From Verrucomicrobiaceae bacterium (GTDB lineage Bacteria; Verrucomicrobiota; Verrucomicrobiae; Verrucomicrobiales; Akkermansiaceae), in the NCBI GenBank assembly GCA_003820635.1, contig RPOS01000026.1, forward strand, positions 1 through 37,904: a stretch of DNA of 37,904 nucleotides, in the 5' to 3' direction. How positions within the stretch are numbered: the first letter of the stretch is position 1; each line of letters begins with the position of its first letter. The notes beneath the pieces are model-generated. The model saw nothing but the letters and a program-made list of their open reading frames with translations. It searched no databases and was not told the DNA's origin. Positions 1,292 to 24,385 of the stretch are shown piece after piece. Made by a program: the position numbers and the translations under genes.

Positions 1292-2188
1292 ATGCTTGAA
1301 ATCCGCAGCCTGCACAAATCCTTCGGCGGCAAGCCCGCGCTGCACGATGTTTCTTTCAGCGTGGCGCGCGGTGAGATCCACGGGCTGTTAGGTCACAACG
1401 GCGCGGGCAAGAGCACCACGCTCGGCATCATCCTCGGCATGGTCATGCCGGATGGGGGCGACGTCACCATCGGCGGCGTTTCCGTGCTTGAAAACCGCTC
1501 GCAGGCGCTGCGCAAGGTCGGTGCCATCTTCGAGGCCCCGGCGTTTTACGAGTACCTCAGCGGTTGGGAAAACCTGCGCCTGCTGATGGGCTACTCCGGC
1601 GGCTTCGATGCCAAGGCCGCGCGCGAAACCGTCGAACTCGTCGGGCTTTCGAGACGCATCCATTCGAAGGTGCGCACCTACAGCCACGGCATGCGCCAGC
1701 GCCTCGCGCTCGCCCAGTCGCTGCTGCCGGAGCCGGAGTTGCTTTTGTTAGACGAACCCACCGACGGACTGGATCCCGAAGGCATCAAGTGGTTCCGCGA
1801 TTTCATCCTGCGGCTGCGCGACGAGCGTGGCATGACGGTTTTGTTCAACTCGCATCTGTTAGCCGAGGTGGAACTGATGTGCGACCGCGTGGCCATCCTG
1901 CGCGAGGGCAAGCGCGTCTTCGAAGGCGAGGTCGGCGGCCTGCACGATGATGATCTGTTGTTCGAGGCCGATCTCGAGCCATGGGAGCGAGCCACCCCGC
2001 TGATCCACGCCATGGGCGGCGAAATCCCCGTGTCAGGCCGGATCCGCCTGCCGCCCGGCGCGGACTCCGCTGCGCTGGTGGAGTCGCTCGTCCACGCTGG
2101 TATCCGGTTGCGCGCGCTGGCCCCCATCCGCCGCTCGCTTGAGGATCTCTACATGGAAATCCTCAACGGTGCGGGCAGCCCGAATTGA
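1292..2188 (+). CDS. ABC transporter ATP-binding protein
   Basis: A 298-residue ABC ATPase. Visible motifs are Walker A GHNGAGKST (residues 34-42), the signature SHGMRQR (131-137), Walker B LLLLDEP (150-156) followed by the D-loop, and the switch His in FNSHLL (188). After the nucleotide-binding domain there is a C-terminal extension of about 85 residues, as in the BcrA/CcmA-type exporters of the ABC-2 class. The usual partner, an ABC-2 membrane permease, is not adjacent: upstream is a pseudopilin and downstream is truA. The partner must be encoded elsewhere, or the ATPase serves a different complex. The start ATG at 1292 lies 9 bp after the pseudopilin stop. Confidence 0.93.
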   Translation: MLEIRSLHKSFGGKPALHDVSFSVARGEIHGLLGHNGAGKSTTLGIILGMVMPDGGDVTIGGVSVLENRSQALRKVGAIFEAPAFYEYLSGWENLRLLMGYSGGFDAKAARETVELVGLSRRIHSKVRTYSHGMRQRLALAQSLLPEPELLLLDEPTDGLDPEGIKWFRDFILRLRDERGMTVLFNSHLLAEVELMCDRVAILREGKRVFEGEVGGLHDDDLLFEADLEPWERATPLIHAMGGEIPVSGRIRLPPGADSAALVESLVHAGIRLRALAPIRRSLEDLYMEILNGAGSPN

Positions 2189-2271
2189 TGGCAATCCGAT
2201 CAGGCCTCCGTCAATGCCGCGCAACTGCCGGGCTTGCGATCCGCCGGGCGGCACGCCATCTTTGCCGCCCA

Positions 2272-3042
2272 ATGCGCTTGAAGCTCACCATTGCCTACGA
2301 CGGACGCCCCTACAACGGCTGGCAGTCGCAGGCCTGCGGCAACACGGTGCAGGACTTCCTGCTGCGCGCGCTGGAGGAGGTGGCGAAGCAACCGGTGAAA
2401 CTCCAAGGCTCCGGCCGCACCGACACTGGCGTGCACGCGCTCGGGCAGATCGCGCATTTCGATCCTCCGCCGGAAATTTCGATGAACCCCTTCAACTGGG
2501 TGCCGGCGCTCAACTGCAAGCTTCCCGCCACCATCCGGGTCATGGCCTGCGAGGAGGTGACGGCGGATTTTCACAGCCGCTTTTCCGCCACCGGGAAAAT
2601 CTATCATTATGATATCTGCACGGATCCGGTGTTGCCGCCCTTGAAAGCCGGTTTGGCGTGGCACTTGCCGCGCTTGCTGGATGCCGCGGCCTTGGAGCAG
2701 GCGCTCGCGCTGTTTTGCGGACGGCATGATTTCCACGCCTTCGCCGCATACCGCGGAAACGAAATGCCGGACATGGATTGGTTCCGCACCATCCACCGCG
2801 CGGACTTGGAAACGCTCGCCGACGGATACCGCATCACCTATGTGGGAGACGGTTTCCTTTACAAAATGGTGCGCCTGCTCACCGGTGCCGCGGTCCATGC
2901 CGCACAGGGCCGCATGCGCATGGAGGATCTGGCCGCGCTGCTTGACCAAGCGCCCGGGCTGCCGCTTGGCAAAGCCCCGAACTGCGCTCCGGCCGACGGG
3001 CTTTATCTCCAGCAAGTGCTCTACGGAACAGCCCATCCGTAA
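2272..3042 (+). CDS. truA: tRNA pseudouridine(38-40) synthase TruA
   Basis: This 256-residue enzyme converts uridines 38-40 of the tRNA anticodon arm to pseudouridine. The catalytic motif GSGRTDTGVHA carries the essential Asp at about residue 51. The first strand MRLKLTIAYDG and the 'YNGWQSQ' motif are typical of TruA, as is the later 'GDGFLYKMVRLL' segment. I chose the ATG at 2272 because the family starts at the RLKLTIAYDG strand, and the in-frame upstream stretch from 2185 overlaps the ABC gene and has no family character. It lies 83 bp downstream of the ABC ATPase gene and could be co-transcribed with it. Confidence 0.95.
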   Translation: MRLKLTIAYDGRPYNGWQSQACGNTVQDFLLRALEEVAKQPVKLQGSGRTDTGVHALGQIAHFDPPPEISMNPFNWVPALNCKLPATIRVMACEEVTADFHSRFSATGKIYHYDICTDPVLPPLKAGLAWHLPRLLDAAALEQALALFCGRHDFHAFAAYRGNEMPDMDWFRTIHRADLETLADGYRITYVGDGFLYKMVRLLTGAAVHAAQGRMRMEDLAALLDQAPGLPLGKAPNCAPADGLYLQQVLYGTAHP

Positions 3043-3052
3043 GAAAAATTGC

Positions 3053-3077
3053 GGAATAATCCCGCCGTGCCATACTC
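3053..3077 (+). promoter_or_regulatory. Possible ECF-type promoter of the sigma factor operon
   Basis: GGAATAAT at 3053-3060 followed by CATACTC at 3071-3077 resembles the GGAAT/-10 layout used by some ECF sigma factors and sits just ahead of the sigma gene start at 3090. It would fit autoregulation, but the spacer is short and no second copy is visible in the window for comparison. Confidence 0.22.
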
Positions 3078-3089
3078 CCATCCGTGCCC

Positions 3090-3638
3090 ATGAGTGAGTT
3101 TGAAGAACTCGTAGATGCCCATTATCAGGCGCTGTTCCGCTTCGCGATGTCACTGACGCGCGACTCGGCCACGGCGTGCGACTTGGTGCAGGAAACCTTC
3201 TGCATCTGGGCCGCCAAGGGCGATCAGCTGCGCGACCGCTCGAAGGCGAAAACCTGGCTCTTCACCACGCTGCACCGCGAGTTTCTCAGCCACCGCCGGA
3301 AGGCCTCCAGGTTCTCGGACGAGCCGCTCGACGAAGCCGCCGCCGAGTCAATGGCTGGTCCCGAGGAGGATGCGGACCGGCAAATGGACGGACAGCGCGC
3401 GCTGGAGTTGTTAGGTGCGCTGGACGAAACCTACCGCGCGCCACTCGCCCTCTTCTATCTCCAGCAGCACAGTTACAAGGACATCGCCAAGATCCTCGAT
3501 GTGCCGATCGGCACGGTGATGTCGCGGCTTTCACGCGGCAAGGAAATGCTGCGCCGCAAAATGATGGAGGAGCCCTCGAGCGCTCCCAAAAACATCCTGC
3601 AAATTCAAAACGGAGAACTGCAACAACACCATGGATAA
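3090..3638 (+). CDS. RNA polymerase sigma factor, sigma-70 family (ECF)
   Basis: A 182-residue ECF sigma factor with region 2 at about residues 8-72 (core-polymerase binding and -10 recognition, 'LVQETFCIWAAKG') and a region 4 helix-turn-helix at about 115-172 ('YKDIAKILDVPIGTVMSRL'). No region 1 or 3 is present, as expected for the ECF class. I prefer the ATG at 3090 over a GTG at 3084. The 3' end overlaps the next gene by 8 bp. That gene has the layout of a membrane anti-sigma factor, so the sigma factor is probably held inactive at the membrane and released by an envelope signal. The specific ECF group cannot be named from the sequence alone. Confidence 0.93.
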   Translation: MSEFEELVDAHYQALFRFAMSLTRDSATACDLVQETFCIWAAKGDQLRDRSKAKTWLFTTLHREFLSHRRKASRFSDEPLDEAAAESMAGPEEDADRQMDGQRALELLGALDETYRAPLALFYLQQHSYKDIAKILDVPIGTVMSRLSRGKEMLRRKMMEEPSSAPKNILQIQNGELQQHHG

Positions 3639-4521
3639 GGAACAGGCAAAATTCATCCTGCGGAGTTTCCGGCCGGATGGCGCGGATGTGGACGACCGCG
3701 ATTTCGCCGAGGCCCTCGCGCTGGCCATGGAAAACCGCGAACTCGGCGAATGGCTGGCGCAAGAGCGCGCCTTCGATGCCTCGTTTGCCAATGCGCTGGC
3801 CTCCGTGACACTGCCGGAAACCCTGCGCCATGACATCCTCGGCTGTCTCGCCGGCGAACGCGGGGATTTTCCGCAGGCCGAGGACGAGGTCGATGCCGCG
3901 ATGATCGGCGCGCTGGCCTCAGTCCAGCCACCCGCACAATTGCGCCGGGAAATCCTCACCGCGATGGAGCGCAGCAGTTCCGCCGCCTTTCCTCCCAAGT
4001 CGCTATGGTGGCGTCTCGCACTGCCGACGGCTGCCGCAGCCGGAGTGGCACTCGCCTTCACGCTCACCCAAAACGCAGGCGAAAAGCCGTCAGCCGTGAA
4101 TGCCGGGCGGGTGCCCGTGGATGTGGTCCAGGCGGGCTTCATCCGTGCCTACCAATCACCGCTCTTCAGTCTGGATGAAACGCGCGATGACCATGGCGAA
4201 CTCATCGATCACCTGAAATCCCGCAAGCTGCCCTGCCCCGGTTGCCTGCCTCCCGGCTTGGTCGGCGTCAAGAGCATCGGCTGCCGCGAGCTCGTCATCG
4301 ACGGCAAGCGCGGCTCACTCGTTTGTTTCGATGAGAGCGAAAACGGCGTCGTTCACCTGGTCATCTTCCGTCGCGAGGATGTGGATGGCGAGCTGCCGGC
4401 GCGCGATCACCCGACCTTCTCCCAGGAAGGCCACTGGGCCACCGCCCGCTGGGAGGATGAGCGCCACGTGTTCATCCTCTTCGGCGCCACCGATGTGCAC
4501 CGGCTGGCATCGTTGTTTTGA
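3631..4521 (+). CDS. Probable membrane anti-sigma factor
   Basis: A 296-residue protein encoded directly after, and overlapping, the ECF sigma gene. Residues 1-125 are cytoplasmic-like. One membrane segment lies at about 127-146 (WWRLALPTAAAAGVALAF), and about 150 residues follow outside the membrane. The cytoplasmic part has no HxxxCxxC zinc anti-sigma motif. It does contain a visible duplication: ALASVTLPETLRHDIL near residue 55 and ALASVQPPAQLRREIL near residue 94. The outer domain has 'CPGC' at about 205 and further Cys residues, which could make disulfides or bind metal. The anti-sigma role is inferred from gene order and topology. The family is not recognised with certainty. Confidence 0.7.
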   Translation: MDKEQAKFILRSFRPDGADVDDRDFAEALALAMENRELGEWLAQERAFDASFANALASVTLPETLRHDILGCLAGERGDFPQAEDEVDAAMIGALASVQPPAQLRREILTAMERSSSAAFPPKSLWWRLALPTAAAAGVALAFTLTQNAGEKPSAVNAGRVPVDVVQAGFIRAYQSPLFSLDETRDDHGELIDHLKSRKLPCPGCLPPGLVGVKSIGCRELVIDGKRGSLVCFDESENGVVHLVIFRREDVDGELPARDHPTFSQEGHWATARWEDERHVFILFGATDVHRLASLF

Positions 4522-19824: not shown

Positions 19825-20232
19825 ATGCCGAAACGCTGGACTTTCCACCCCTTCATCTGCTCACGCCGGACACGCCGCAACCCGCCTCATGGTGGCTGCC
19901 GCGTCCCGCGGCAGACCGTGGTCGTGGCATCCCGCCGCCGGATTCCGGAACGCCCAAACATCCCGGTCGGCAGCCCAAACGGCCCGGTCGATCTTCCAAA
20001 CGCCGTGGTCGGCACTCCAAACGGCCCGGTCGGTGCCCCAAATGCCGTGGTCGGCACTCCAAATGGCCTGGTCGATGCCTCAAATGCCGTGGTCGGCTCT
20101 CCAAACGCCCCGGTCGATGCCCCAAACGCCGTGGTCGGCACTCCAAACGGCCTGGTCGGTGCTCCGAACGCCCCCGCCGGGTGCCGCACCGTGGCCGCTG
20201 CGGATTTCCCCCATCTCCCCCCAAACCACTGA
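19825..20232 (+). CDS. Possible heptad-repeat protein (doubtful)
   Basis: An open frame of 135 residues whose C-terminal two thirds are ten units of a seven-residue repeat (PVGSPNG, PVDLPNA, VVGTPNG and similar). The first 45 residues are rich in Arg and Pro and have no protein-like pattern. The 21-bp repeat keeps all frames open on both strands, so an open frame is weak evidence. Differences between units mostly change the amino acid, which argues against selection on this reading. It ends 29 bp before the next gene. It may be non-coding. Confidence 0.22.
   Translation: MPKRWTFHPFICSRRTRRNPPHGGCRVPRQTVVVASRRRIPERPNIPVGSPNGPVDLPNAVVGTPNGPVGAPNAVVGTPNGLVDASNAVVGSPNAPVDAPNAVVGTPNGLVGAPNAPAGCRTVAAADFPHLPPNH
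19963..20172. repeat. Ten-unit 21-bp tandem repeat
   Basis: Ten head-to-tail copies of a 21-bp unit, for example GTGGTCGGCACTCCAAACGG plus one base at 20005-20025. Odd and even units alternate, giving a higher-order period of 42 bp. The invariant core is GGTCG followed by CCAAA or a close variant. There are no spacers, so this is not a CRISPR array. It lies in the gap before the unknown gene at 20262. Confidence 0.93.
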
Positions 20233-20261
20233 CAACCAATAACCAAAACCACTGATACCCG

Positions 20262-20972
20262 ATGAAAAACGAATTCGCCAACCGCCAGAACATGCACCTT
20301 GCCGTGCTCTCCCTGCTTGCCGATCCGGCCCACCTGCCGGCTTGGAAGGACCTGAACCCCACCGCCTTCACCGCCCGCGCCGCCGAGCTCGGCCCCATGG
20401 TCGATGCCCTCACCGATTTGATCGCCGGCCAGCAGGCGGACACCACCGGCCACGCCGCCGATAAGGACCGCGAGGAAGAAGAACTCGAAACCGTCGCCCA
20501 TGAGATTTCCCAGGCCCTCGCCGGATGGTTTGAGGATCAGGGCCGCGTGGCCGATGCCGCCCAGATCGATCTCTCCCGCAGCACCTGGCAGGGCCTCCGG
20601 GATGCCGACCTCATCGCCAAGGCCCGGCTGCTCCACGGAAAACTCAGCGCCGCACTCGCGGAGGATGCCGCCGCCCTTCTCGATTACGGCCTCAGCCCGG
20701 CGGATGCCACGCTGCTCGCCAAGGAAACCGCCGATTTCGAGGCCATCGTCGCCAACCCCGCCGCCGCCATTTCCGGCCGCAAGGCGCTGACCAGCTCCCT
20801 GCGCCCGAAATTCCGCGAAGTGACCGCACTGCTCGCCAAGATGGACCGCCTCGTCCTGCGCTTCCGCAAATCCGAGGCCGGCACCCGCTTTGCAGACGCC
20901 TGGCAGGCCACCCGCATCGTCCGTGATCTGGGCGAAGCCGCCCCCCCGCAGCCCGCCCCGCCCACGCCCTGA
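20262..20972 (+). CDS. Helical protein of unknown function
   Basis: A 236-residue protein that I do not recognise. The start MKNEFANRQNMHLAVLSLL at 20262 is clear, and codon use is typical of the window, so it is a real gene. It is almost wholly helical, with no signal peptide, membrane segment or Cys cluster. An acidic stretch (DKDREEEELETVAHEIS) lies at about 67-83, and the end is Pro-rich (PPQPAPPTP). Helix content and the repeated Ala/Leu heptads suggest a coiled-coil bundle. The tandem repeat lies just upstream and the restriction-methylase 182 bp downstream on the same strand. A shared function is possible but only inferred from position. Confidence 0.7.
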   Translation: MKNEFANRQNMHLAVLSLLADPAHLPAWKDLNPTAFTARAAELGPMVDALTDLIAGQQADTTGHAADKDREEEELETVAHEISQALAGWFEDQGRVADAAQIDLSRSTWQGLRDADLIAKARLLHGKLSAALAEDAAALLDYGLSPADATLLAKETADFEAIVANPAAAISGRKALTSSLRPKFREVTALLAKMDRLVLRFRKSEAGTRFADAWQATRIVRDLGEAAPPQPAPPTP

Positions 20973-20980
20973 ATCCATAA

Positions 20981-21065
20981 CCGGCAGGGCGGTCCCACCC
21001 CGCTCCGCCGTGGTTTCCGCCGTCCGGCGGATTCTCCGGCGCTGCGGGCCGCATCGCCTTGCCGG
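20981..21065. repeat. Palindromic element before the restriction-methylase gene
   Basis: CCGGCAGGGCG (20981-20991) and CGCCTTGCCGG (21055-21065) form an 11-bp stem with one mismatch, enclosing a very GC-rich interior that holds a smaller hairpin around CCGCCGTCCGGCGG (21018-21031 region). This looks like a REP or MITE-type element. It fills about half of the gap between the unknown gene and the methylase gene. Confidence 0.45.
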
Positions 21066-21154
21066 GTTTCCACAAAGCGCATCTCCTTCCCGCCGCCTGA
21101 TCCAAGAATCCGCTCGCCGCAGCGCGGGCTGGCTCCTTAGTCTCACCTCCATTC

Positions 21155-24100
21155 ATGCCAGCTCCCGATTCCGTCCTCAAGCTCTGCGAAACCTTTGCCG
21201 GCCACCGCGAGTTCTACCGCTCCGGGAACTTCAACGAGGCCCAGCTCCGCAAACAGTTCCTCGATCCCTTCTTCGCCGCGCTCGGCTGGGATATGGACAA
21301 CAACGAAGGCCTCGCCCCGCAATACCGCGATGTCATCCATGAGGACGCCCTGCGCGTCGGCCCGCATGTGAAGGCTCCGGACTATGCCTTCACCATCCAC
21401 GGCCAGCGGAAGTTCTTTCTCGAAGCGAAGAAACCCTCCGTGAACATCAAGGGCGACGTGGCACCCGCCTATCAGCTCCGGCGCTACGCATGGTCCGCCA
21501 AGCTGCCGCTCTCCATCCTTTCGGATTTCGAGGAGTTCGCCATCTACGACACGCGCATCAAGCCGGGCAAAAACGATCCCACCTCCACCGCCCGCACGTT
21601 TTACTGCACCTTCGAGCAATACGCCGAAAAGTGGGACGAAATCGCCGGCATCTTCTCCAAAACCGCCATCCTCAAGGGCTCCTTCGACAAATACGCGGAC
21701 TCCGCCAAAAAGAAAAAAGGCACCGCCGAGGTGGACACCGCCTTCCTTGAGGAAATCGAGCGCTGGCGCGACCTGCTCGCCCGCAACTTCGCGCTGCGCA
21801 ATCCCGCGCTCAACGTCCGCGACCTCAACTTCGCCGTTCAGAAAACCATCGACCGCCTCGTCTTCCTCCGCATTTGCGAAGACCGCGGCACCGAGGATTA
21901 CGGCCGCCTCCGCACCATCGCCAACGGTACCCAGACCTATCCGCGCCTGCTGGAGCTCTTCCGCGCCGCCGATGCCCGCTACAATTCCGGACTCTTCCAT
22001 TTCTCCCATGAGAAATCCCAGGCCGAGCAGCCGGACACCCTCACCCCGCACCTCGCGCTGGATGACAAGACCCTCAAGGACATCATCGCCCACCTTTACT
22101 ACCCGGATAGCCCTTACGAGTTCTCTGTCCTGCCCGCCGACATCCTCGGCTCCGTCTATGAACGCTTCCTTGGAAAAACCATCCGCCTCACCGATGGCCA
22201 CCAGGCGAAGATCGAGGAGAAACCCGAAGTCCGCAAAGCGGGCGGCGTCTATTACACGCCGTCCTACATCGTGGATTACATCGTCCAGAACACGCTGGGC
22301 GTTTTGCTCGAACCTGTAGCGGCGGTCTGTGACCGTCGCACGAATTCCGATGCATCCCAACAGCCACCGGCGGTCACAGACCGCCGCTACATTTCCATTG
22401 AGCAAGCAGCCAAGCTCAAGGTCGTGGATCCCGCCTGCGGCTCCGGCTCTTTCCTCATCGTCGCCTATCAATACCTGCTGGACTGGCACCGCGACCGCTA
22501 TTGCGAGAACCCGGAAAAATGGAGCAAGGGCAGAACCGCCACCCTCTATCAGGCGCGCGGCGGCGAATGGCGGCTCACCACCGCCGAGAAAAAGCGCATC
22601 CTCCTCAACAACATCCACGGCGTGGACATCGACGCCGCCGCCGTGGAAGTCACCAAGCTCTCCCTGCTGCTCAAAGTCCTCGAAGGCGAAACCGCCGAGA
22701 TCGCCCAGCGCGACTTCCTCAAGGAACGCGAACGCATCCTGCCGGACCTCGGCAAAAACATCCAGTGCGGCAACTCCCTCATCGGCCCGGATTTCTACGA
22801 TGCTCCTGAAATGGACCTGCTCGACGATGAAGCGCGCTACCGCGTCAACGTCTTCGATTGGAAAGCCGCTTTTCCAGAGGTGTTCAAGCAGGGTGGCTTC
22901 GATTGTGTTATCGGGAATCCACCGTATGTGCGCATCCAGGCGATGAAGGAATGGGCTCCCATCGAAGTGGAAATTTACAAGAAAACCTATCGCTCCGCCG
23001 CGTCCGGAAATTATGACATCTATGTCGTCTTCGTTGAAAAGGCGCTCCAACTGCTGAGCGTCAAAGGCCGTTCCGGCTACATCCTGCCGCACAAATTCTT
23101 CAATGCCCAATATGGACGCAATCTCCGCGAGTTGATCGCCAAGGGACGCCACTTGTCGGAAATCGTTCATTTCGGTGATCAGCAGGTTTTTTCCGGCGCA
23201 ACCACCTACACCTGCCTGTTGTTCCTGGACCGCGAATACAAGCCAACTTGCCCGTTCGTGAAAGTCCATGATCTGGAGGCATGGAGAAACCGGATCGATG
23301 AAGTGAGAAAAATCGCCAGCCAGGGTGGATCAAGCGTCGGCGAGGATCAGGCGATCTATCGAATCCAGCGAGCTGCAATCGATGAAGTCGTCACCATCGG
23401 CGATATTCCACTCGCTCAACTCGGAGGTGATGATTGGAACTTCGGTGTCGGACGGCTAGCCAAACTCATGCGGAAACTTCAGGCGAGTCCGGTGAAACTG
23501 GGAAACATCGCCCGGCTGTTTGTCGGAATCCAGACGGATGGAGACGCGATTTTCATCCTGCATGATGCGACAGGCGGCTCCAAAACCACCGAAGCATACT
23601 CGAAGGCTCTCGATTCGAGAGTTGTGGTGGAAAACACATTGCTGCGCCGCCTTCTGAAAGGATCCGTCAATTTGGATCGATATGAAATCCGGGATGATGG
23701 GAAGCGATTGATCTTCCCTTATGCACCGGACTCTCCAAACGAACTTGTTCCGATGGATCAAATCGAACGGAACCAGCCAAACGCCGCGAAATACCTCAGG
23801 GAACTTGAGCGGGTCCTGAAAAAACGTGGCAAAGGAAAGCTCGGAAACGCATGGCATGGATACGTTTACAAAAAGAATCACGGGCGGCTGGCTGGCCCGA
23901 AAATTCTCTGCCCGGCGATCGCCCGTGGCGCTGCGTTTGCCTATGATTTCACTGGTGATTTCTTTTTCACTGGTAGCGGAAGCGGAGGAGGCGGCGCGTA
24001 TGGCATCCGGCTCAATGATGATCAGAAAATCGCTTCTGAATGGCTGCTGGGTGTTTTGAACTCAAAATTGGCGGATTGTTTTTTCAAATTGAACAGCACG

Positions 24101-24385
24101 CCGTTTCGTGGTGGATGGATCGCACTGACGAAGCAGCATATCGAGGTTCTCCCAATTCGCCTCATCGACTTCACCAACCCCGCCGATGTCGAGAAGCACG
24201 ACCGGATGGTTTCGCTGGTGGAGCGGATGCTGGAGCTGGTGCCGAAGCGGCGGGCGGAGAACAACCCGCAGGTGGCGGCGCAGCTCGACGCGCAGATCGC
24301 CGCGACGGACCGCCAGATCGACCGACTCGTCTATGATCTCTACGGCCTGACGGAAGAGGAGATCAAGCTGGTGGAGGGCGCGTGA
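21155..24385 (+). CDS. Type IIG-like restriction-modification enzyme (Eco57I-type methylase)
   Basis: A 1076-residue fusion of nuclease, adenine methyltransferase and specificity parts. The N-terminal PD-(D/E)xK site is seen as APDYAF (Asp76) and FFLEAKKP (Glu90, Lys92). The helical linker follows, then SAM-binding motif I DPACGSGSFL near residue 425 and the catalytic NPPY motif GNPPYVRI near residue 587, typical of gamma-class N6-adenine methylases. Residues about 620-1000 hold the target-recognition region. A C-terminal helix (DAQIAATDRQIDRLVYDLYG) closes the protein. Such enzymes cut and protect DNA with one polypeptide. Two oddities are a palindromic element inserted in frame at residues 387-413, just ahead of motif I, and a lower-GC recognition region. 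No frameshift is visible. Confidence 0.92.
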   Translation: MPAPDSVLKLCETFAGHREFYRSGNFNEAQLRKQFLDPFFAALGWDMDNNEGLAPQYRDVIHEDALRVGPHVKAPDYAFTIHGQRKFFLEAKKPSVNIKGDVAPAYQLRRYAWSAKLPLSILSDFEEFAIYDTRIKPGKNDPTSTARTFYCTFEQYAEKWDEIAGIFSKTAILKGSFDKYADSAKKKKGTAEVDTAFLEEIERWRDLLARNFALRNPALNVRDLNFAVQKTIDRLVFLRICEDRGTEDYGRLRTIANGTQTYPRLLELFRAADARYNSGLFHFSHEKSQAEQPDTLTPHLALDDKTLKDIIAHLYYPDSPYEFSVLPADILGSVYERFLGKTIRLTDGHQAKIEEKPEVRKAGGVYYTPSYIVDYIVQNTLGVLLEPVAAVCDRRTNSDASQQPPAVTDRRYISIEQAAKLKVVDPACGSGSFLIVAYQYLLDWHRDRYCENPEKWSKGRTATLYQARGGEWRLTTAEKKRILLNNIHGVDIDAAAVEVTKLSLLLKVLEGETAEIAQRDFLKERERILPDLGKNIQCGNSLIGPDFYDAPEMDLLDDEARYRVNVFDWKAAFPEVFKQGGFDCVIGNPPYVRIQAMKEWAPIEVEIYKKTYRSAASGNYDIYVVFVEKALQLLSVKGRSGYILPHKFFNAQYGRNLRELIAKGRHLSEIVHFGDQQVFSGATTYTCLLFLDREYKPTCPFVKVHDLEAWRNRIDEVRKIASQGGSSVGEDQAIYRIQRAAIDEVVTIGDIPLAQLGGDDWNFGVGRLAKLMRKLQASPVKLGNIARLFVGIQTDGDAIFILHDATGGSKTTEAYSKALDSRVVVENTLLRRLLKGSVNLDRYEIRDDGKRLIFPYAPDSPNELVPMDQIERNQPNAAKYLRELERVLKKRGKGKLGNAWHGYVYKKNHGRLAGPKILCPAIARGAAFAYDFTGDFFFTGSGSGGGGAYGIRLNDDQKIASEWLLGVLNSKLADCFFKLNSTPFRGGWIALTKQHIEVLPIRLIDFTNPADVEKHDRMVSLVERMLELVPKRRAENNPQVAAQLDAQIAATDRQIDRLVYDLYGLTEEEIKLVEGA
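22315..22391. repeat. Palindromic element inserted in frame in the methylase gene
   Basis: A perfect 21-bp inverted repeat: left arm 22315-22335 beginning TGTAGCGGCGGTC, right arm 22371-22391 ending GACCGCCGCTACA, with a 35-bp centre. It translates as VAAVCDRR and AVTDRRYI around a Ser/Gln-rich loop. It sits between the helical linker (VQNTLGVLLEP) and motif I, where related enzymes usually have only a few residues. The reading frame is kept. Confidence 0.9.

Follow-up and report, generated by a model that had tools for sequence, protein, structure and literature searches.

A probable GTAG-type REP dimer in frame within a predicted type IIG-like restriction-modification gene, in a loop that holds different repeats in homologous methylases

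The closest described elements are the GTAG-type REPs (repetitive extragenic palindromes), of which 24 families have been published, with stems of 5–13 bp and loops of 2–20 nt (Table 1 of the source), and with dimers that are most often arranged head-to-head (Di Nocera et al. 2013, PMC3733652). According to this source, most REPs are intergenic; intragenic GTAG REPs are also published for Opitutus terrae, a verrucomicrobium, and more than half of the intragenic REP inserts, taken over the species studied, are dimers or groups encoding 20–30 amino acids. The recB genes of two Xanthomonas carry different REPs at about one site, and the same authors speculate that proteins of DNA repair could have been altered by REPs within their genes. 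Mobilization of GTAG REPs by RAYTs, the REP transposases, is put forward there as a hypothesis, and RAYT genes with flanking REPs are termed REPtrons. In-frame REPs are already known from many unrelated genes, and the element described here would belong to this known kind.

The window analyzed here is the whole stretch of 37,904 nucleotides from a Verrucomicrobiaceae bacterium (contig RPOS01000026.1), and coordinates refer to it unless another locus is named. The plus-strand ORF at 21155..24385 (1076 amino acids) was assigned by Pfam and Foldseek to a type IIG-like restriction-modification gene, in which HSDR_N, N6_Mtase/MmeI_Mtase/Eco57I and TaqI_C place a nuclease N-terminus, an N6-adenine methyltransferase and a specificity domain on one predicted chain. 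The best Foldseek match is the CamA adenine methyltransferase 7rfl, with M.BseCI, BrxX, BpuSI, MmeI and DrdV as lower matches, and the gene is presumably active. Pfam matches were obtained for six of the nine neighboring ORFs (RsgA, OSBS, AMP-binding, TrkA, TrkH, and DNA topoisomerase/gyrase A), and no restriction gene was found among the nine scanned. The palindrome lies in frame within the 1076-residue ORF, between the helix TPSYIVDYIVQNTL (22256..22297, plus strand; residues 370–385 of the model, ending YIVQNTLG), which we take to be motif X, and DPACGSGSF (22427..22453, plus strand; mostly invariant in 60 aligned homologues), presumably SAM motif I; the initial annotation, which had placed the repeat between the linker and SAM motif I, was right on this point. 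We call this insert-bearing loop, between motifs X and I, loop A. In the AlphaFold model built with 60 homologues (mean pLDDT 81.7), residues 389–410, flanked by the helix 370–385 and a strand at 423–425, have a pLDDT below 50 (35 and 38 by ten-residue blocks), and the modeled insert segment is best taken for a floppy excursion, probably a disordered loop.

The element is built on a perfect 21-nt inverted repeat with arms at 22315-22335 and 22371-22391, and exceeds every other perfect inverted repeat found in the window with loops of up to 120 nt; first-order Markov shuffling of the window, done 100 times, gave at most 15 nt. Arms, ORF and shuffles thus agree with the perfect in-frame repeat at 22315..22391 first reported from the sequence. 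The arms extend to 22315-22338 and 22368-22391, with a length of 24 nt, a complementarity of 96% and 29 nt between them. Each 21-bp arm is also a small hairpin of its own, missed in the initial annotation, with an unpaired GTAG, an 8-bp stem and a 3-nt loop. The GTAG ends face outward, and repeat search and folding give two REP units arranged head-to-head at 22316..22390 (plus strand), a 75-nt core that encodes VAAVCDRRTNSDASQQPPAVTDRRY and has a folding energy of -47.9 kcal/mol (z -8.8). Unit 1 (22316..22338, plus strand) consists of GTAG and a CGGCGGTC-TGT-GACCGTCG hairpin and has a form often seen in relatives; the spacer of 29 nt occupies 22339..22367 (plus strand); and the inverted unit 2 (22368..22390, minus strand) consists of GTAG and a CGGCGGTC-TGT-GACCGCCG hairpin. 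Only one frame of the forward REP unit is free of stops, the other frames reading TAG or TGA, and the gene uses the stop-free one, giving VAAVCDRR..VTDRRY. The exact 12-base start of the arm occurs in both arms and nowhere else within the window. Scans of the window against Rfam (gathering threshold) and for tRNAs gave no matches, and the 75-bp dimer had no match in a plasmid collection.

The 77-bp palindrome is very probably a head-to-head dimer of a GTAG-type REP, a short non-autonomous repeat. Both arms carry the unpaired GTAG at the end of the stem-loop, the stem of 8 bp and the loop of 3 nt lie within the published ranges, and the head-to-head order is that of the commonest published dimer; dispersal is a further likeness, observed here in relatives (PMC3733652). 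With the REPs of O. terrae in the same source, the element shares both the position in frame inside a gene and the phylum, so that the statement of the initial annotation that no such case was known in this phylum is not supported. The comparison with the palindromic elements of Rickettsia made in that annotation holds in that these, too, are described in PMC3733652 as in-frame palindromic repeats in genes, but they belong to another host and, according to the same source, end in CGTC in R. conorii, whereas the unpaired tag here is GTAG. The host gene differs from the published cases in kind, insofar as the main text of PMC3733652 contains the strings "restriction" and "methyl" zero times.

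We searched 99 relatives, defined as genomes related to the closest named genome (G001, a Luteolibacter sp. MAG), for the 20-base arm pattern GTAGCGGCGGTCTNTGACCG and found 323 exact matches in 22 of them, with 12 in G001, 58 in G057, and 132 in G056; the reversed pattern had no match in the 99 genomes. The dispersed-repeat style suspected in the initial annotation is borne out, for the relatives, by these counts. In 40 stretches (209 kb) taken around arm matches in G001, G061, G057, and G056, of which seven lack any unit even when one mismatch is allowed, the units occur as 26 singles, six head-to-head pairs, four same-direction pairs and three larger groups. That single units prevail in the relatives counts against the explanation favored below. 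The six head-to-head dimers, in G001, G061, and G057, measure 84–97 bp, compared with 75 bp in the window. The dispersal of the repeat, as observed in relatives, is part of the direct evidence.

The closest loci, L001 (in G001) and L002, are 86% and 85% identical to the window methylase, and three adjacent genes of the window (2143-4518) resemble genes beside the L001 methylase, with 71–90% amino acid identity, by which we take the window for a close verrucomicrobial relative. Loop A measures 42 amino acids in the window gene and 22 in L001 and L002; it reads GKLLTP-ETENP-ISLPEAAKLKV in the nearest loci versus GVLLEP-[25 aa]-ISIEQAAKLKV in the window. The repeat encodes 25 residues, roughly the 26 given in the initial annotation, but the net gain over L001 and L002 is only 20, because the ETENP/ETEKP of these loci (15 bp) has no counterpart here. 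Accordingly, none of the nearest relatives offers a clean empty site (a net difference of 60 bp plus the 15 bp without counterpart), and no target duplication is readable in the DNA alignment with the nearest loci; replacement or local recombination is therefore as possible as simple insertion. Both an insertion with local loss and an exchange between repeats with common ends are compatible with this comparison.

The homologue set comprises 121 proteins, the window protein and 120 listed of 7997 scored, with loop A readable in 120. Among these listed homologues, loop A ranges from 14 to 81 amino acids and reaches at least 30 in 28 of the 120 readable proteins, contrary to the initial view that related enzymes have almost nothing at this place; nor do the listed homologues all carry the segment. 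The window's repeat type is found at loop A in two of the 121 proteins, P0001 and P0013. At the protein level, a second, GTRG-tagged type (VAAITGRR..DDRR) is present in four listed homologues and a third type (GSAGVPPAS..QDARAP) in five. For the second type, the back-translated DNA pattern matches 17 times across 10 of the 99 relatives (control 0), with head-to-head pairs at three of the 17 loci; the guessed pattern of the third, in its presumed form, has 22 matches in 11 of the 99 (control 1), with head-to-head pairs in two of the 16 loci listed. Twelve repeat-like peptide patterns run against the 121 proteins hit only loop A, except that P0019, P0041, and P0054 each have a single match of the KKGG type, which we take as chance. 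A peptide search for further carriers, which the initial annotation had proposed, yielded one protein of similar length (P0013) out of five candidates; the in-frame copies in other genes, described below, came from DNA searches instead.

Loop A also holds repeats in other phyla. In L070 (Chloroflexi) two units of an unrelated GTAG repeat stand there head-to-head as a dimer; this repeat has nine matches in its own genome, two of them the loop copy (control 1). In L074 (Spirochaetia) loop A contains another palindrome, of the AGCAAGGGGTTGC type, whose half-site has 31 matches in its own genome, again with two from the loop copy (control 0). Both inserts are weaker inverted repeats, with scores of 15 and 10 versus 21 in the window. 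In a wider set of 254 rows (121 proteins and 133 locus rows, a few of which are pieces of one gene), loop A, measured between anchors, reaches at least 30 amino acids in 39 rows. Nine distinct, DNA-backed genes with a loop of at least 30 amino acids, the window excluded, were each tested for palindromes with 100 windows from the same gene as background: two reached p 0.03 or less and seven failed, and therefore loop A tolerates long inserts generally, with only some of them palindromic. A core-column map of the 254 rows shows inserts of at least 10 amino acids at residue 691 of P0003 in 74 rows and at residues 385 and 387, in loop A, in only 13 and 11, partly because the aligner splits loop A over columns; by this measure loop A is not the place richest in inserts. 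Residue 691 is a third insert position, and short palindromic inserts (score 14–15) occur there in L208 and L211, from the Chloroflexi phylum search. As a separate observation, the methylase homologues P0066 and P0075 bear Fic and DUF433 domains at the C-terminus.

What is new is this recurrence of different repeat types in one loop of homologues, across phyla, of which we noticed no counterpart in the accessible part of PMC3733652. One loop filled with unrelated repeats in several phyla provides a natural series for studying the conversion of mobile DNA into protein sequence and the kinds of loop that permit it. The anatomy of the dimer, its frame, and the empty and differently filled homologues are direct observations. 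From them we favor, with good confidence, the explanation that a GTAG REP dimer entered a permissive loop and was kept since the frame was preserved. A REP dimer of the type spread in the G001-related genomes would have entered the motif X–motif I loop of the methylase, and it would have been retained because the frame was kept, being read in the only stop-free forward frame of its first unit. Loop A would be permissive, repeatedly taking up mobile-element DNA, as shown by three or more types of repeat among close homologues, by palindromes of unrelated sequence in a Chloroflexi and a Spirochaete gene and, at the loop B described below, by RAYT domains. That the enzyme tolerates the insert in a near-neutral manner seems likely to us.

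The dimer may instead have come to the site by recombination rather than transposition, either through swapping of REP dimers at their shared ends (GT[AG]GCGGCG..CGCCGCTAC) or through movement of gene segments between homologues, and we consider this a distinct possibility, short of probable. The two REP types with common ends have identical junction codons, and the junction LL[ETS]P followed by VAA, with DRR[YH] followed by IS at the other end, is common to six of six VAA-type carriers. In a quick tree of the 47 of 121 homologues whose loop ends in two chosen motifs, built with the insert left out, the 13 carriers (five, four and two of the three repeat types and two others) are scattered and need 13 changes by class or 12 by presence. 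The GVLL variant just ahead of loop A is found in nine of the 13 carriers and in none of the 34 non-carriers, and the ETEKP stretch of the relatives is absent from these carriers. However, 18 of the 44 inner branches of this tree are open, and the pattern is therefore one of scatter and not proof of separate insertions, which makes it uncertain evidence for recombination as well. Moreover, recombination accounts for exchange but not for first arrival, and it does not explain why the homologous genes from Chloroflexi and Spirochaetia hold palindromes of unrelated sequence.

Entry of a REP dimer into a permissive loop, the reading preferred here, also has to be weighed against roles for the insert itself. 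The hairpin in the coding sequence may act at the RNA level, slowing ribosomes or RNase and so tuning expression; its folding energy and z-score speak for this, as does the argument in PMC3733652 that REPs are in many cases transcribed and could function as RNA, but the Chloroflexi and Spirochaete inserts are weaker inverted repeats, and we regard such an action as unlikely. It is more unlikely still that the insert was selected to modulate or switch the enzyme beside the cofactor site. Its place between motifs X and I and its recurrence in homologues would suit such a role; against it, the insert types are unrelated, 92 of the 120 readable listed loops are shorter than 30 amino acids, the segment is predicted to be disordered, and REPs are in frame in unrelated proteins also. 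The suggestion in the initial annotation that the extra loop alters or switches activity gains no support; nothing computed points that way. A chance palindrome, or an old loop that was never inserted, was rejected as having next to no probability, since, for all the variation in loop A length within the family, the shuffles stop at 15 nt versus 21 and relatives hold many scattered copies of the unit, while the control matched nowhere.

Units of the window's type are in frame in a U32 peptidase (Pfam) at the identical place in G001 and G057, whose proteins are 84% identical, and in an M3 peptidase of G061, between its two Pfam domains. The second-type repeat is in frame in an aminoacyl-tRNA synthetase at the same place in G057 (assigned by Pfam) and G032 (by eye), and in a UvrA-like protein of G017 (by eye). 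Together, the in-frame copies of both types lie at the loci L147, L181, L163, L259, L265, and L256, and they agree with the intragenic REPs of PMC3733652. As for the agent of dispersal, a RAYT may mobilize the REP. Y1_Tnp (RAYT) domains are present in 96 of the 99 relatives, but a RAYT-like ORF was found in only one of the 40 stretches (209 kb), about 510 bp from a REP, which is about chance given the genome density. No enrichment of REPs near RAYTs was seen in these stretches with a small, insensitive HMM made from nine sequences, which may miss distant RAYTs and which replaced a stricter motif scan. Because REPs are not enriched near RAYTs here, we rate RAYT mobilization of the window REP, for GTAG REPs a published hypothesis, as plausible only. 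At positions 120-599 of L149, two REP units are read through in frame within a short ORF that contains RGLIRWLRPDYQNP and, judged by eye, resembles the end of a further DNA methyltransferase; a RAYT ORF follows at 881-1384.

A second loop of the methylase, loop B, lies before NPPY (residues 557-560 of P0003); in the window it is counted from the alignment at 22883..22894 (plus strand), just before GGFDCVIGNPPY, and is empty, whereas some homologues carry repeats or RAYT domains there. Repeat-like inserts are present at loop B in L058, L220, and L069, and a near-complete Y1_Tnp (RAYT) domain lies there in frame in P0095 (profile positions 21-121 of 121) and in L233 (18-121 of 121). In L233 (G815:C43), a perfect palindrome of 30 bp starts 77 nt past the RAYT YIRNNHIKHRETWG motif, within the methylase frame. 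A RAYT followed by a palindrome recalls the REPtrons of PMC3733652, but here the transposase domain is in frame within a methylase and the palindrome is single-copy. As a dispersed repeat this palindrome was ruled out, having a single occurrence in its genome.

A search with the RAYT region of P0095 as the query gave 39 proteins, P0095 included, from 621 candidates. Precomputed Pfam assignments have Y1_Tnp together with N6_Mtase and Eco57I in 39 of these 39 (P0095 and P0122-P0159), which is not proof of a preference for methylases, as the query holds some methylase sequence and the candidates are of about 690–2194 amino acids. The motifs DH[VI]H and Y[IV]..N..[KR] are found in all 39 RAYT-bearing proteins. 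The RAYT stands ahead of NPPY in 36 of the 39, mostly at one site, the exceptions being P0128 and P0130, without NPPY after the RAYT, and P0138, with the RAYT after NPPY; by hand count, the alignment to P0003 breaks at residues 557-559 in 28 of the 38 RAYT-bearing proteins that could be aligned. On a tree of columns projected from P0003, which covered 37 of the 39 RAYT rows, the other two being short of columns, and every second one of the 120 others (60 rows), the presence of a RAYT needs six changes, at least two of them forced by starred branches, with long branches flagged; 500 shuffles of RAYT presence gave a mean of 29.9 changes, and none was as low as six. In addition, rough RAYT and host identities correlate across 38 proteins (r 0.37; 0 of 1000 permutations). 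We read these results as suggesting a few origins of the nested RAYTs, followed by partly shared descent. As an observation apart, P0122 and P0123, both with a nested RAYT, also have motif X–motif I loops of 191 and 198 amino acids.

The protein names in one source already say "methylase subunit/REP element-mobilizing transposase", and a literature search covering titles and the starts of abstracts found no paper on nested RAYTs in methylases. It is conceivable, though doubtful, that this methylase family has turned into a landing platform for REP-type elements: two loops of the SAM-binding domain would take in REPs in frame time and again, and the REP transposase that many homologues hold, mostly just ahead of the catalytic NPPY, might be a functional component. 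If so, one protein would perform both methylation and the cutting or copying of REPs, and the DNA binding of the methylase could, for instance, guide nicking or the choice of target. The nested RAYTs would offer a testable link between REP mobilization and restriction-modification enzymes.

Elsewhere, the window contains a 21/42-bp tandem array at 19954-20173, with about 10 units of 21 bp, within a minus-strand open stretch (ORF 19887-21152) that has no Pfam match. The plus-strand ORF at 20262-20972 has a 66% match to L263; it may be the real gene at this place, in which case the tandem array may lie upstream of it.
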